From: Acidobacteriota bacterium
GTDB taxonomy: Bacteria; Acidobacteriota; Vicinamibacteria; Vicinamibacterales; CAVVIG01
Assembly: GCA_017883165.1 (NCBI GenBank)
Contig: JADGOC010000024.1
Location: 1 to 33,321, forward strand
Reading direction: 5' to 3'
Length of the DNA stretch: 33,321 nt
The translations under genes were made by a program, and so were the position numbers. Position 1 is the first letter of the stretch, and each line of letters opens with the position of its first letter. The notes under the pieces were generated by a model. It saw nothing but the letters and a program-made list of their open reading frames with translations, was not told the origin of the DNA and ran no database searches. Shown piece after piece: positions 11,151 to 16,886 of this stretch.

Positions 11151-11930
11151 ATGCTTGGACTCGCGCGCGCCGACCTCGAATCGCTGCTTCGGGCCAGGAA
11201 GCTCGATCGCACGCTGACGACGGCGCTGCCACCGGTGTCGTCCGCCCCTGGGGACACCGGCCCGCGCGACGATCTCGCCGTGTCCGCCACCGGCCTTTCG
11301 ACGCTCGACGCGCGACTGGGCGGCGGCCTGCCGCGCGGGCAGTTGTCGGAGCTGGTCGGCCCGCGATCCTCGGGGCGCACGAGCCTCCTGCTGCGGATGC
11401 TCGCCGCGGCGACCGCGCGCGGCGAGCTCGTCGCGCTCGTCGATGTGCTCGATCGCTTCGACGTCGCGTCGGCGCAGGCGGCCGGGATCGATCTCGATCG
11501 GCTGCTCTGGATTCGCGGCCACGTCGTGATGAATCCGGGGCTCTGCCGCGATCTGAATCAGCGCGCGCTCGAGCAGGCGGTGAACGCGCTCACGCTCGTC
11601 CTGCAGGCCGGCAACTTCGGCCTCGTCGCCTTCGACGCCGCCGACGCGCCGTCCGATGCGATCCGCCGTCTTCCGTTCACGACGTGGCTGCGGCTGCAGC
11701 GCATGCTCGAAGGGAGCCAGACGACGTGCGTGCTCGTGGGCGGCGAGCGGCTGGCGCGCAGCTCGGCGGGGTTGACGCTGCAGCTGGGGATTCGGGATTC
11801 GGGATTCGGGGTTCGATTCAGCGGTCGCGTGTTCGATGGTCTCGATGTCGACGCGCGCGTCGTGCGCAGCCGCGCGCGATCGCAGGAGCAAGCCGATGTA
11901 CGCGTGTCTCTATCGACCACCTGCGCCTGA
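11151..11930 (+). CDS. imuA: ImuA, RecA-like protein of the mutasome
   Basis: A 259-residue RecA-fold protein of the damage-induced mutagenesis cassette. It works with ImuB and DnaE2 in translesion synthesis. Walker A region: GQLSELVGPRSSGRTSLLLR (residues 63-82), with the SSGRT form usual in ImuA. A Walker B-like strand FGLVAFDAADAP follows. ATG 11151 was chosen because AGGAA lies 8 nt upstream and because it follows the promoter; the open frame extends 19 codons further back. Near the C-terminus a (GGGATTC)4 repeat encodes GIRDSGFGVRF in place of the usual sequence. The 3' end overlaps imuB by 35 nt. Confidence 0.88.
   Translation: MLGLARADLESLLRARKLDRTLTTALPPVSSAPGDTGPRDDLAVSATGLSTLDARLGGGLPRGQLSELVGPRSSGRTSLLLRMLAAATARGELVALVDVLDRFDVASAQAAGIDLDRLLWIRGHVVMNPGLCRDLNQRALEQAVNALTLVLQAGNFGLVAFDAADAPSDAIRRLPFTTWLRLQRMLEGSQTTCVLVGGERLARSSAGLTLQLGIRDSGFGVRFSGRVFDGLDVDARVVRSRARSQEQADVRVSLSTTCA
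11787..11814 (+). repeat. (GGGATTC)4 heptamer repeat inside imuA
   Basis: Three perfect GGGATTC units and one GGGGTTC unit lie within the coding sequence (about residues 213-222). The unit is not a multiple of three, so gain or loss of one unit would shift the frame of the last ~38 codons and alter the overlap with imuB. Confidence 0.85.
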
Positions 11931-13497
11931 GGATCACGGACACGTAGGGGCCGACCTTGGTCGGCCCGAGCGGGCGGAGCCCTTCGCTATCGCTCAGGAC
12001 AGGCAAGCTCCGCCCCTACTCGCGATCGCGCGCGAGTTCTCGCCGCGCTACGAGCGCCAGGGCGACGACCTGGTGGTGATCGACGTGAGCGGGGTCGGCC
12101 GTCTCTTCGGCGCGTCCCGCGCGATCGGGGACGCGCTCGCGCGGGACGCCGCCCGCCGCGGCGTGCGCGTCCACGTGGCGCTGGCCGGCACGTGCACGGC
12201 GGCGCGGATCCTCGCGTACGCACGGCCCGGCGTCACGGTGGTCGATCGGGGCCGTGAGGCCGACGCGCTGGCGCTGCTCCCGATCGGGATTCTGGAAAAG
12301 ATGACACCCGAGCGCGAGCGTCTACGCTCGAGCGCGAGGAACAGCGAAGCCGTCGCGATCTTTCGCGCCTGGGGCCTCAACACGCTCGGGGAGCTCGCCG
12401 CGCTGCCCGCCTCCGAGCTGGCTGCACGGCTCGGTCAACAAGGCCTCCTGTGGCAGACGCTCGCGCGCGGCGACGATGTCCGCCCGCTGATACCGGATCT
12501 GGCGGAGGAGCGCTTCGACGGGTCGATCGATCTCGACTGGCCGATCGACGGGCTCGAGCCGCTGTCGTTCGTGCTGACGCGGTTGCTCGAGCCGCTGTCG
12601 ACGCGGCTCGAGCGGCGCGATCGCGGTGCGGCGGTACTGCACGTGCGGCTCGGCCTCGTCACACACGAGGTGCACGCACGCCGCCTCGAGTTGCCGGCGC
12701 CCATCCGCGACGTGCGGACGCTGCGCACGCTGGCGCTGCTCGATCTCGAATCGCATCCGCCCCCGGCGGCGATCGACCGCGTCACGGTCGTCATCGACCC
12801 GACGCCGGGCCGCGTGCTGCAGCACACGCTGTTCACGCGCGCGATGCCCACGCCCGAGCAGCTGTCGACGCTCATGGCGCGCCTCGGCGCGTTGATGGGG
12901 CAGGACCGGATCGGCGCGCCGGAGGCGGTCGATTCGTATCGTCCAGGGGCGTTTGCGATGCGAGAGTTTGCGAGCGTTACGTCATCTTTTCTTACTTCTC
13001 GCGGGGCTCCACCCCCGCTCGCCCCTGCGGCTTCGCTGTCCCTCGCGCTCGAGCATAGACTCTCGCGCTCGGGTGAAGGCTGTCACTCCACATTCATTTC
13101 TGCATTGCGGCGCTGTCGCCAGCCGGTGCCCGCGCGCGTGGCGATCGAGGACGATCGCCTCGTGCGCGTCACCACCGATCGCCGCGGATTTGCCGGCGGA
13201 CAGGTGACGCGGTGCGCGGGTCCGTGGCGCACGTCGGGGAACTGGTGGACGCTGACACCCGAGGCCGAGAGCCTACGCTCGAGGCCGAGGGACAGCGAAG
13301 CCGTTGGGGCGAGCGGGGACAGCCGTGAGCCAGAACGCGTGGGGGTGGGGCCCCACGCGCGTGAAGAAAGCACCCCGCGAGACAGTAAAGAATGGAATCG
13401 AGACGAATGGGACGTGGCGCTCAGCGACGGCGCCGTCTATCGCATTTTTCGCGATCGCGAGACCGACGCTTGGTTCATCGACGCGATTGTGGACTGA
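11896..13497 (+). CDS. imuB: ImuB, Y-family polymerase-like mutasome protein with repeat insertions
   Basis: Non-catalytic Y-family polymerase homologue that links DnaE2 to the sliding clamp. Recognised blocks are LLAIAREFSPRYE, VIDVSGVGRLFG, the HhH region IFRAWGLNTLGELAALPASELAARLGQQG, the little-finger region, DSYRPGAFAMREF, then ALRRCRQPVPARV, GPWRTSGNWW and WDVALSDGAVYRIFRD. ATG 11896 has AGGAG 8 nt upstream. The catalytic acidic residues of true Y-polymerases are not seen, as expected for ImuB. Four palindromic elements interrupt it in frame at residues 17-42, 136-153, about 364-397 and 453-500, each between conserved blocks. At 533 residues it is long for the family. Confidence 0.88.
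   Translation: MYACLYRPPAPEDHGHVGADLGRPERAEPFAIAQDRQAPPLLAIAREFSPRYERQGDDLVVIDVSGVGRLFGASRAIGDALARDAARRGVRVHVALAGTCTAARILAYARPGVTVVDRGREADALALLPIGILEKMTPERERLRSSARNSEAVAIFRAWGLNTLGELAALPASELAARLGQQGLLWQTLARGDDVRPLIPDLAEERFDGSIDLDWPIDGLEPLSFVLTRLLEPLSTRLERRDRGAAVLHVRLGLVTHEVHARRLELPAPIRDVRTLRTLALLDLESHPPPAAIDRVTVVIDPTPGRVLQHTLFTRAMPTPEQLSTLMARLGALMGQDRIGAPEAVDSYRPGAFAMREFASVTSSFLTSRGAPPPLAPAASLSLALEHRLSRSGEGCHSTFISALRRCRQPVPARVAIEDDRLVRVTTDRRGFAGGQVTRCAGPWRTSGNWWTLTPEAESLRSRPRDSEAVGASGDSREPERVGVGPHAREESTPRDSKEWNRDEWDVALSDGAVYRIFRDRETDAWFIDAIVD
11944..12019 (+). repeat. 76-bp two-hairpin palindromic element inserted in imuB
   Basis: The ends are an 8-bp inverted repeat, GTAGGGGC (11944-11951) and GCCCCTAC (12012-12019). 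Inside are two hairpins: GGGCCGACC-TT-GGTCGGCCC (11948-11967) and GGGCGGAGC (11972-11980) with GCTCCGCCC (12007-12015). It encodes about 25 residues between MYACLYRPPAPED and LLAIAREFSP, which should be nearly adjacent in ImuB. It looks like a MITE- or REP-like mobile palindrome that kept the frame. Confidence 0.85.
12302..12353 (+). repeat. Palindromic repeat family copy A (in imuB)
   Basis: The core TGACACCCGAG...CTACGCTCGAG...GAACAGCGAAGCCGT is shared with copies B, C and D. It encodes TPERERLRSSARNSEAV between GILEKM and the conserved IFRAWGLNTLG block. The inner part (GAGCGCGAGCGT-CTACGCTCGAGCG) is self-complementary. Confidence 0.85.
12985..13085 (-). repeat. Palindromic repeat family copy B (in imuB, inverted)
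   Basis: Read on the minus strand from 13085 it gives TGACAGCCTTCACCCGAG, then the CTATGCTCGAG core, GAGGGACAGCGAAGCCG and a tail GGGGCGAGCGGGGGTGGAGC. The tail matches copy C. It is inserted between MREF and ALRRCRQP in the opposite orientation, yet still in frame without stops. This shows that the element is open in both orientations. Confidence 0.8.
13253..13395 (+). repeat. Palindromic repeat family copy C (longest copy, in imuB)
   Basis: The core TGACACCCGAGGCCGAGAGC-CTACGCTCGAGG...GGGACAGCGAAGCCG is followed by GGGGCGAGCGGGG as in copy B. An extra hairpin (CGCGTGGGG at 13336-13344, CCCCACGCG at 13351-13359) and the CCCCGCGAGACAGTAAAGAA tail come next. It splits the conserved GNWW and EWDVALSDG segments of ImuB. 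Confidence 0.8.
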
Positions 13498-13512
13498 CGT
13501 TCTGCTATCACT

Positions 13513-13553
13513 CCATCACCCCATCACCCCCATCACCCCATCACCCCATCACC
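13513..13553 (+). repeat. (CCATCACC)n tandem repeat abutting the dnaE2 start
   Basis: Five imperfect CCATCACC units fill the gap between the imuB stop and the dnaE2 ATG. The last unit directly contacts the start codon. The repeat occupies the place where a Shine-Dalgarno should be, and none is visible. Confidence 0.8.
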
Positions 13554-16500
13554 ATGTTCCCCGTGTATATCGAACTCCACACCGCCTCCGCCTTCAGCTT
13601 TCTGCAGGGCGCGTCGCTGCCCGAGACGCTCGTCGATCGCGCCGCGGCGCTCGGCTATCCCGCGATCGCGCTGCTCGATCGCGACGGCGTTTACGGCGCG
13701 CCACGCTTCCACAAAGCGGCGCTCGCGGCCGGCATCCGTCCGATCATCGGCGCGGAGCTGACGATTGGGGAGACGGGAGGGGCGGGAAGCTGGTTGTTGC
13801 CGGTGTTATGCGAATCAGCCGACGGGTACAGGAACCTGTGCCGACTGATTACCACGATGAAGATGCGCGCGCCGAAAGGCGAAGGCGCGCTCGCCCTCGA
13901 CGAGCTCGACGGCCGCACGCGCGGCCTCGTCGCGCTCGTCGGCCGTACGGCGCTCGACGGCCGCCGGTATGGGGTCGGCGGCCTGCTCGATCGCGTCGCG
14001 GGCATCTTCGGCCGCGATCAGGTGTACGTCGAGCTGCAGCGCCATCTGCGCCGCGAGGAAGAAGCCGACATCCAGGCGCTCGTCGCGCTCGCCTCGGCGT
14101 TTCGCGTATCGGTCGTCGCGACCGGGGGCGTCCGCTTCGCGACGCCCGCCGAGCGGCCGCTCTTCGACGTGTTCACCTGCCTTCACCATCACACCGACCT
14201 GGCGCGGGCCGGCCGCCGCTTGGCGCCGAACGCGGAGCGGTACTTGAAGCCGTCGGCCGACATGGCGGCGCTCTTCAGCGATCTGCCGGACGCGGTGCGC
14301 GCGACGCGCGAGCTCGCCGATCGGCTGCAGTACACGATGGCCGATCTCGGCTACCGGTTTCCCGACTACCCGGTGCCGCCGGGCGAGACGCAGGCGTCGT
14401 TTTTGCGCAAGATGGCGGAGGTCGGGGCGCGCGAGCGGTACCGGCCGTATCACGATCGCGCGCGCGCGCAGATTGCGCGCGAGCTCGATCTCATCGAGAA
14501 GCTCGCCCTCGCCGGCTACTTCCTCATCGTCTGGGACATCGTCAATTTCTGCCGGCAGCAGGACATTCTCGTGCAGGGACGCGGAAGCGCGGCCAACAGC
14601 GCCGTGTGCTACAGCCTCGGGATCACGGCGGTCGATCCGGTCGGCATGGATCTGCTGTTCGAGCGGTTTTTGTCCGAAGAGCGCGGCGAGTGGCCCGACA
14701 TCGATCTCGATCTGCCGAGCGGCGATCGCCGCGAGCGCGTCATCCAGCATGTGTACGAGAAATACGGCCGGTTCGGAGCCGCGATGACGGCCAACGTCAT
14801 CACCTACCGCGGGCGAAGCGCCGCGCGCGAAGTGGGGAAGGCGCTCGGGTTCGAGCCGGCGCAGATCGATCGGCTGGCGAAGGTGATGAATAATTTCGAG
14901 TTCACCGATCCGGCCGACGCGCTGCCGCGCCATCTCGCGTCGGTCGGCCTCGATCTGCATGCCGACCGCGTGCGCCATTTCGCGCGCCTGTGGGGCGAGA
15001 TGCAGGATCTGCCGCGTCATCTCGGCCAGCATTCCGGCGGCATGGTGATCTGCCAGGGGCAGCTCGACGCCGTCGTGCCGCTCGAAAACGCGAGCATGCC
15101 GGGCCGCGTCGTCGTGCAGTGGGACAAGGACGACTGCGCCGACATGGGGATCGTCAAGGTCGATCTGCTCGGCCTCGGCATGATGGCGGTGATCCAGGAT
15201 TCGCTGACGCTCGTGCCCAACCTCGATCTGGCGCATTTGCCGCAAAATGATCCGGCCGTCTACCAGATGCTCTGCGAGGCCGACACGATCGGCGTTTTCC
15301 AGGTCGAATCGCGCGCGCAGATGGCGACGCTGCCGCGACTCAAGCCCGCCTGCTTCTATGACATCGTCGTGCAGGTGGCGATCATCAGGCCCGGGCCGAT
15401 CGTCGGCCAGATGGTCCACCCGTATTTGAACCGCCGCGCCGGCCGCGAGCCGGTGCGCTATCCGCATCCCTCGCTCGAGCCGATCCTCGCGCGGACGCTC
15501 GGCGTGCCGCTCTTTCAGGAGCAGTTGCTGCGCATGGCGATGGTCGCCGCCGGGTTCAGCGGCGGACAGGCCGAAGAGCTGCGGCGCGCGTTCGGGTTCA
15601 AGCGATCCGAGCGGCGGATGAAGCCCGTCGAGATGCAGTTGCGCGAGGGGATGGCGCGGCAGGGCATCGAGGGCGAGGCGGCCGAGGAGATCGTCAGGTC
15701 GATTGCGTCCTTCGCGTTGTACGGATTTCCCGAGTCGCACGCGGCGAGCTTCGCGCTGCTGGCGTACGCGAGCGCGTATCTCAAGGCGCATTATCCCGCG
15801 GCGTTCTATACCGCGCTCCTCAACAACCAGCCGATGGGCTTTTATCATCCGTCGACGCTCGTCAAGGACGCCCAGCGCCGCGGCGTCCGGTTCCATCCGA
15901 TCGACGTGCAGGTGTCGCAGTGGGACTGCACGGTGGAGGCCGACGGCTCGATCAGACTCGGCTTGCGATATGTAAACGGTTTGCGCGAGCAAGTTGGCAA
16001 AACGATCGCGACACAGCCTTCACCCGAGGCCGAGCGTCTACGCGCGAGGCCGAGGGACAATGTTGAAATAACCCCGTGTCCGAAATGCGGCTGTGACGAC
16101 CCCTCACTGATCGAACGCGTCAATGCGTCGCGATGGTTCTGCAACACCTGCTCGCACGACTGGGCCGCCGACCCCTCGAGTGACAAGAAACGATTTGCCT
16201 CGCTCGACGATCTGATCCGACAGAGCGGCCTGCGCCGCGATGAAATCGTCACCCTCGCCGACATCGGTGCGCTCAATGCATTCGGATACGACCGGCGCTC
16301 CGCGCTCTGGCAGGCCGAACGGGCGATCAGGCCCAGCGGGGAGCTGTTCACGACGACGGAGACGACGAACAGCGCAGAACTCGCTGAACACGCAGAGTAT
16401 TTTTATCAAGAGCTTTCTGCGAGTTCCGCGGGTTCTGCGCCGGACGTCGTGGACTGCCCACTCAAGCCGATGACCGAAGCCGAGCGTCTCGTGGCCGACT

Positions 16501-16886
16501 ACGCCGGCACGGGCCTCACCGTCGGCCGCCACCCCATGGCGCTGCGCCGCGACGAGCTGGCGATGCGCGGCGTGCTGCGCGCGTCCGATCTCCGCGCCAC
16601 GCGCCAGGGCCGCCGCGTGCGCGTCGCCGGCATGGTCATCACGCGCCAGCGTCCCGGCACGGCGAAGGGCTTCGTCTTTCTCACGCTCGAAGACGAAACC
16701 GGGATCGCGAACATCATCGTGCGGCCGGATCTCTTCGCGCGCGACCGCCTCGTCATCATCGACGAACCGTTCCTCGTGGTGGAAGGCGTGCTGCAGAATC
16801 AGGACGGTGTCACCTCCATCCGCGCCGAACAGGTGCAGGGGATGCGCGGCGCCGACGTCGACTTCGACGCGCACGATTTCTACTGA
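13554..16886 (+). CDS. dnaE2: Error-prone DNA polymerase III alpha-like DnaE2 (ImuC) with zinc-ribbon-like insert
   Basis: C-family polymerase that performs damage-induced mutagenic synthesis with ImuA and ImuB; 1110 residues, slightly above the usual ~1030-1080. N-terminal PHP domain starts MFPVYIELHTASAFSFLQGAS; its HxH metal motif is degenerate (HTA), common in DnaE2. Palm motifs are GRGSAANSAVCYSLGIT, PDIDLDLPSGDRRERV and VKVDLLGLGMM. The finger region LFQEQLLRMAM, the helix-hairpin-helix LRYVNGLRE...LADIGALNAFG and the OB fold (RVRVAGMVITRQRPGTAKGFVFLTLED) follow. Three extra pieces are inserted: repeat copy D (820-836), a C-x2-C-x17-C-x2-C module (Cys842, 845, 863, 866), and a second palindrome (940-962). 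ATG 13554 is chosen by homology. Confidence 0.93.
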   Translation: MFPVYIELHTASAFSFLQGASLPETLVDRAAALGYPAIALLDRDGVYGAPRFHKAALAAGIRPIIGAELTIGETGGAGSWLLPVLCESADGYRNLCRLITTMKMRAPKGEGALALDELDGRTRGLVALVGRTALDGRRYGVGGLLDRVAGIFGRDQVYVELQRHLRREEEADIQALVALASAFRVSVVATGGVRFATPAERPLFDVFTCLHHHTDLARAGRRLAPNAERYLKPSADMAALFSDLPDAVRATRELADRLQYTMADLGYRFPDYPVPPGETQASFLRKMAEVGARERYRPYHDRARAQIARELDLIEKLALAGYFLIVWDIVNFCRQQDILVQGRGSAANSAVCYSLGITAVDPVGMDLLFERFLSEERGEWPDIDLDLPSGDRRERVIQHVYEKYGRFGAAMTANVITYRGRSAAREVGKALGFEPAQIDRLAKVMNNFEFTDPADALPRHLASVGLDLHADRVRHFARLWGEMQDLPRHLGQHSGGMVICQGQLDAVVPLENASMPGRVVVQWDKDDCADMGIVKVDLLGLGMMAVIQDSLTLVPNLDLAHLPQNDPAVYQMLCEADTIGVFQVESRAQMATLPRLKPACFYDIVVQVAIIRPGPIVGQMVHPYLNRRAGREPVRYPHPSLEPILARTLGVPLFQEQLLRMAMVAAGFSGGQAEELRRAFGFKRSERRMKPVEMQLREGMARQGIEGEAAEEIVRSIASFALYGFPESHAASFALLAYASAYLKAHYPAAFYTALLNNQPMGFYHPSTLVKDAQRRGVRFHPIDVQVSQWDCTVEADGSIRLGLRYVNGLREQVGKTIATQPSPEAERLRARPRDNVEITPCPKCGCDDPSLIERVNASRWFCNTCSHDWAADPSSDKKRFASLDDLIRQSGLRRDEIVTLADIGALNAFGYDRRSALWQAERAIRPSGELFTTTETTNSAELAEHAEYFYQELSASSAGSAPDVVDCPLKPMTEAERLVADYAGTGLTVGRHPMALRRDELAMRGVLRASDLRATRQGRRVRVAGMVITRQRPGTAKGFVFLTLEDETGIANIIVRPDLFARDRLVIIDEPFLVVEGVLQNQDGVTSIRAEQVQGMRGADVDFDAHDFY
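16013..16060 (+). repeat. Palindromic repeat family copy D (in dnaE2)
   Basis: ACAGCCTTCACCCGAG (as in copy B) is followed by GCCGAGCGTCTACGCGCGAG and GCCGAGGGACAA. It encodes SPEAERLRARPRD between the conserved GLREQVGKTIA segment and the cysteine-rich insert of DnaE2. The 3' tail of the element is missing. Confidence 0.8.
16372..16440 (+). repeat. 69-bp imperfect palindrome (CGCAGA-type) in dnaE2
   Basis: The 26-nt arms 16372-16397 and 16415-16440 pair at 22 of 26 positions around a 17-nt AT-rich loop (TATTTTTATCAAGAGCT). Arms start GCGCAGAAC and end GTTCTGCGC. The element encodes about 23 residues (SAELAEHAEYFYQELSASSA) that are not expected in DnaE2, between the fingers/HhH part and the DYAGTGLTVGRHPM block. 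Confidence 0.8.

Follow-up and report, generated by a model that had tools for sequence, protein, structure and literature searches.

Rickettsia palindromic elements (RPEs) are short, dispersed palindromes that lie in frame in unrelated functional proteins, form several families per genome and also occur outside genes (Ogata et al. 2000/2002, summarised in PMC10969869); the same source covers intragenic ERIC and such MITEs, small and non-autonomous elements that are sometimes fused in frame. A 2013 survey reported intragenic GTAG/CGTC REPs, many of them in genes of replication and repair, such as those for DnaE2, helicases, tRNA synthetases and pseudouridine synthases; its authors proposed flexible loops as the tolerated sites and, as speculation, mutator effects (PMC3733652). 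Nothing on such repeats in Acidobacteria was found among open papers. Like RPEs, the element described here is a dispersed palindromic repeat with in-frame copies in protein genes; like the intragenic REPs, it is a short palindrome inside genes, including those for DnaE2, a helicase, a tRNA synthetase (metG) and a pseudouridine synthase; and like the MITEs, it is small and non-autonomous, with in-frame fusions.

Repeat copies in the imuA-imuB-dnaE2 operon

The window, the whole 33,321-nt stretch of DNA that was analysed, from a soil acidobacterium of the order Vicinamibacterales, contains adjacent imuA, imuB and dnaE2 genes of recognised families, as in an ImuA-ImuB-DnaE2 mutasome operon, with ImuA scoring below the family cut-off and ImuB assigned through position and orthology. 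The genes, the four copies of the repeat and the inserts of other types are as follows.

11151..11930, + strand: imuA, RecA/SulA-like mutasome accessory gene (Pfam RecA, E = 5.6e-13; NCBIfam ImuA_translesion, E = 4.4e-14, under the curated cut-off)
11896..13497, + strand: imuB, Y-family-like mutasome hub, between imuA and dnaE2 (weak Pol IV family matches; orthology)
13554..16886, + strand: dnaE2, error-prone DNA polymerase (NCBIfam error-prone DNA polymerase, 1221 bits against a cut-off of 939)
12302..12353, + strand: copy 1, imuB aa 135-152, in frame, truncated past the second hairpin, 42 bits
about 12989..13090, - strand: copy 2, imuB about aa 365-398, in frame, inverted, full length, 94.4 bits, low-pLDDT stretch 338-402
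about 13250..13395, + strand: copy 3, imuB about aa 452-499, in frame, full length plus an extra module, 69.3 bits, low-pLDDT stretch 451-498
16013..16060, + strand: copy 4, dnaE2 aa 820-835 (site C), in frame, first hairpin only, 45.5 bits
11941..12022, + strand: insert of a different palindromic family (GTAGGGGCCGACC...GGTCGGCC...CCGCCCCTAC), imuB aa 16-42, in frame, single-stranded DNA (ssDNA) fold z = -2.66, low-pLDDT stretch 13-36
16362..16451, + strand: insert of a third palindromic family (GCAGAG type), dnaE2 site D, in frame, ssDNA fold z = -6.7, matches on about eight contigs of the own genome
11788..11815, + strand: probable GGGATTC-repeat insert in imuA, read in the sequence

Four aligned copies of one repeat, as the original prediction had it, do exist in imuB and dnaE2 and required only slight corrections of coordinates; the inserts of other families at 11941-12022 and 16362-16451, and possibly that at 11788-11815 in imuA, had been overlooked. 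The placement of the copies in frame between conserved blocks was likewise upheld, the copies lying in loops that separate the conserved blocks in family alignments. Forward copies in the window (n = 3) use one shared reading frame, TPEAExLRSRPRD. An encoded peptide with a fixed frame was rejected as the unit of the family, as it holds for these three copies and fails in relatives, where copies are read in no fewer than three forward frames and also from the reverse strand. The claimed openness in either orientation stood up, the repeat being open in five of six frames and occurring both ways round in genes. TPEAESLRSRPR is an example of the peptides that inserts are predicted to add to ImuB or DnaE2.

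The imuB and dnaE2 genes look functional: their cores are under purifying selection (core dN/dS 0.17-0.19 for imuB, 0.09-0.15 for dnaE2), and the ImuB domains are confident in an AlphaFold model (mean pLDDT 73.7). The low-pLDDT stretches of that model, 13-36, 338-402 and 451-498, coincide with the N-terminal insert, with copy 2 and with copy 3, respectively, and copy 1 is modelled as a helix extension of lower confidence. The DnaE2 model (mean pLDDT 46) was set aside. An ImuB match is present in 24 of 27 family genomes, mostly spanning much of the protein. Apparently broken genes in two relatives (imuB of G011, dnaE2 of G012) were rejected as such, since the frame changes coincide with assembly gaps, that is, runs of N.

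The concentration of inserts in the operon is family-wide and involves several unrelated repeat families. The family at 11941-12022 has DNA matches elsewhere in the own genome (contigs C36, C198, C275, C57, C315 and C160), and in G013, G014 and G023 the GGGATTC repeat type also occupies site B of DnaE2. The GCAGAG-type palindrome, which encodes AELAE...SAxSA, recurs in similar form at DnaE2 site D in about eight family genera, which reflects either a single old insertion, since retained, or recurrent insertion. At site C, positions 16079-16164 (DnaE2 aa 842-870) encode a zinc-ribbon-like CxxCxC...CxxC segment (CPKCGCDD...FCNTCSHDW), which was present in 11 of 12 fully aligned family genomes (G013 lacking it) and in none of the short-loop relatives (site C of 10-17 aa), and which seems to be an older domain insertion with repeats on its flanks. 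Between imuB and dnaE2, positions 13507-13553 hold a short tandem repeat, ATCACCCC, with a period of about 8 bp.

Structure and distribution of the element

The unit is about 85-100 nt long and comprises three hairpins (H1, H2 and H3), with a consensus from 76-81 near-full copies of TTCACC-CGAGNNCGAGAGTCTACGCTCGAGNNCGAGG-GACAGCGAAGC-(spacer)-GCGCGTGGGGGTGGGGCCCCACGCG-AAGTAARRAA, of which the 3' end is an A-rich tail, GTAARRAA. H1 (5'-NC-GA-GNNC-GA-GAG-TCTACG-CTC-GA-GNNC-GA-GN) contains two tandem G.A motifs and covarying N positions; C-C-(GA)-GNNC-(GA)-GAG pairs with its mirror, and the GA steps form tandem G.A mismatches that are invariant in nearly all 31 copies. The NN positions occur as GC/GC, CG/CG, GG/CC and CC/GG, and the outer pair switches from C-G to G-C. 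The palindromic core had been said to vary between GCC and CGC with its arms kept complementary; two window copies are of CGC type and two of GCC type, hairpin pairing is kept, and GG opposite CC and CC opposite GG were both seen in relatives. After these GG/CC and CC/GG versions had been found, the description of CGAGNNCGAG as a plain direct repeat was rejected in favour of a tandem-G.A hairpin. H2 is centred on GCGAAGC and pairs more weakly (67%), and H3 is a variable G+C stem with a GTGGGG loop, in which sequence varies freely with pairing kept and tandem G.A replaces two Watson-Crick pairs jointly in 10 of 31 copies.

H1 and H3 covary, with 88.6% paired cells in the alignment and 41 double-change cells against 13.7 in shuffles (0/500) and at most 20 in slid-partner controls. 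Folding of ssDNA recovered H1, H2 and the GTGGGG-loop stem in full-length copies, with modest whole-copy z values of -1.2 to -2.2. A search of the copies against Rfam matched no family and returned only sub-threshold chance microRNA matches.

The 23-mer core (up to 2 mismatches) occurs at 13 places in the own 4.24-Mb genome, compared with 1 for a reversed-pattern control. The shared sequence pattern of the original prediction thus stands genome-wide as the 23-mer core, and fails as the weak 14-mer alone, which gave 11 matches in the window against 6.2 expected (up to 2 mismatches, not significant). A covariance model, the approach that had been proposed as a check, was built from 29 copies and run at a threshold of E <= 0.01, producing 30 matches in the own genome, all four window copies among them, and dispersed copies in relatives. 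The repeat is dispersed in 15 of 27 family genomes and 28 of 120 order genomes, most of them fragmented MAGs, so that copy numbers are lower bounds. Clustering of the four copies in the mutagenesis operon, previously called striking, is confirmed by count, as 4 of 13-30 copies lie in 5 kb of imuB and dnaE2, where chance would place 0.02-0.04 (binomial P 1e-9 to 5e-8). In the relative G012, imuB-dnaE2 accounts for 10 of 127 copies (P 2e-15); G012 operon copies were in the training set of the covariance model, and the 23-base pattern, untrained on them, gives the same concentration.

Copies are both intergenic and intragenic in the own genome and in related genera, and many are intergenic. Further in-frame matches lie in topA, a YpdA-family reductase gene, an amidase gene, mtaB, a pseudouridine synthase gene, metG and a DEAD/DEAH helicase gene (HRQ1/MrfA-type region); the YpdA loop is occupied in three genera, in opposite orientation in one. 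The helicase gene, another repair-type target, carries in-frame copies in tandem, as many as five, in two genera (L196, G011:C80; L207, G012:C131). By simple codon-model gene calls in five genomes, which make the figure approximate, about 14 of 25 intragenic clusters fall in imuB or dnaE2, a share that may exceed what tolerance alone would give. In related genomes, all 17 scored intergenic copies that have both neighbouring genes on one strand (L123, L124 and L125 among them) point the same way as those genes, and such copies mostly end 13-19 nt upstream of the next start codon. This bias may reflect a role at the transcript or RNA level, a directional target with a motif near start codons, or counter-selection of the opposite orientation.

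RAYT transposases were rejected as the mover, since the number of RAYT genes and that of repeat copies do not run in parallel (67 copies and 0 RAYT in G011; 4 RAYTs and 0 copies in G041), and none of the RAYT loci checked had a close copy of the element. The single RAYT-like gene of the own genome (L129, C210) has an unrelated inverted pair, GGGGTCGGGAGCC...GGCTCCCGACCCC, on its flanks. The search for an autonomous partner covered RAYT only, and the unit termini carry at most a short, imperfect TTCAC...GTRAA. No target duplication was identified at the copies.

Insertion into loops and explanations for the concentration

Alignment of orthologues, by which the original prediction proposed to separate native from inserted segments, did not find the same peptides in distant taxa. 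Outside the order, the DnaE2 loops at four sites (A-D) measure 4/9/13/9 aa in most phylum genomes, whereas in the family they reach up to 65/94/182/129 aa; four DnaE2 control blocks hold 20/86/146/84 aa in the family with few exceptions. ImuB and DnaE2 of the family are conserved blocks split by loops whose content differs genus by genus, each genus having its own peptide; the loop peptides of relatives are long, mutually unrelated and often derived from other palindromic repeats, with the present repeat also occurring at such loops, and are few or short in G013 and G015. Inserts of at least 10 aa number 38 in 12 DnaE2 proteins against 3 in 17 copies of the paralogue DnaE1, and self-complementarity at z < -2 was found in 21 of 37 DnaE2 loop inserts against 3 of 37 core DNA segments (P = 2e-5). 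The segments are therefore insertions, since loops outside the order are short and constant and the inserted DNA is common to intergenic copies.

That they are instead native, fast-evolving linkers of ImuB and DnaE2, alike through low-complexity coincidence, is scarcely credible: the sites are indeed loops, and a number of Terriglobia have a longer site A, but outside the order the native loops hardly vary in length, the covarying hairpin is kept, and the same DNA recurs on either strand in topA, ypdA, mtaB, metG and the helicase gene and in dispersed non-coding copies, which refute this explanation. Spread within the operon from one founder copy, by duplication or gene conversion, would fit the tandem copies spaced about 70-84 bp apart in relatives, dnaE2 of G012 included, and is nevertheless improbable, as the window copies comprise both core types, differ in truncation and include one inverted copy, and three unrelated families lie within imuB and dnaE2. 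We think it rather unlikely that the inserts have been co-opted, with longer charged linkers, or hairpins in mRNA or DNA, altering ImuB/DnaE2 activity or expression and being selected. The concentration in mutagenesis genes, also seen with unrelated REPs in other phyla, where a function has been speculated for REP-tagged repair proteins (PMC3733652), would be expected under such co-option, as would the recurrence of the GCAGAG-type palindrome at site D and the co-orientation of intergenic copies adjoining start codons; yet most sites carry an unrelated peptide in each genus and G013 and G015 have few or short ones, so that no particular peptide is kept, and in the rest of the phylum DnaE2 normally has no inserts. 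Insertion could also be biased to mutasome genes, with repeats moving under DNA-damage stress, upon induction of these genes or during synthesis by ImuB-DnaE2; we regard this as a minor prospect, under which the error-prone machinery would gather selfish DNA within the very genes that encode it, and its loops would diversify as a result.

The reading that we favour with good confidence is that of a mobile, hairpin-forming, non-autonomous, RPE-like repeat that the surface loops of a non-essential mutasome tolerate. The palindrome would insert widely rather than being aimed at imuB and dnaE2, its movement helped by some enzyme that plausibly recognises folded single-stranded DNA. Most intragenic insertions would be lost, and in-frame copies would persist where loops tolerate them; ImuB and DnaE2, which are large and modular and probably non-essential and dispensable in the short term, could accumulate inserts in this way, so that tolerance rather than targeting would underlie the concentration. 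The loops would turn over between repeat families as DNA is exchanged, and the added peptides would be mostly neutral, disordered linkers.

Relation to known palindromic elements

The family offers a natural experiment on selfish DNA adding peptides to proteins, with two proteins, fixed loop sites, many genera, several repeat families and DnaE1 as control. It shows which loops of ImuB and DnaE2 admit insertions and brings the RPE phenomenon into Acidobacteriota. It also strengthens the point made in 2013 that genes of replication and repair are favoured by in-frame palindromes, making tolerance versus targeting testable.

The RPE-like behaviour put forward originally holds in that the repeat is dispersed, palindromic and in frame in either orientation within genes whose cores are under purifying selection, and is qualified in that it is an analogy, the frame is not fixed and many copies are intergenic. 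The element may thus be called RPE-like by behaviour, and it is not filed as an RPE because the likeness is one of behaviour and a fixed frame was not found. Unlike RPEs, it belongs to a different phylum, has a different sequence and three hairpins with tandem G.A motifs, uses no fixed reading frame across copies and is strongly concentrated in one operon. It is not filed as a REP because the GTAG/CGTC tag is missing and RAYT genes are not followed: the 29-copy consensus has no unpaired GTAG/CGTC foot, CTAC is confined to the loop of H1, and the 3' tail, mostly GTAA, has the opposite polarity. Unlike the intragenic REPs, it therefore has neither the foot nor a RAYT association, and unlike those surveyed in 2013, it concerns a whole family, with both ImuB and DnaE2 loaded at conserved loop sites by several repeat families. 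As to MITEs, long terminal inverted repeats were not seen, only the imperfect terminal match, and no parent insertion sequence is known. Phenomena of this kind are known already; what appears to be new, among open papers, is the element family with its structure and the load that ImuB and DnaE2 carry across the bacterial family.
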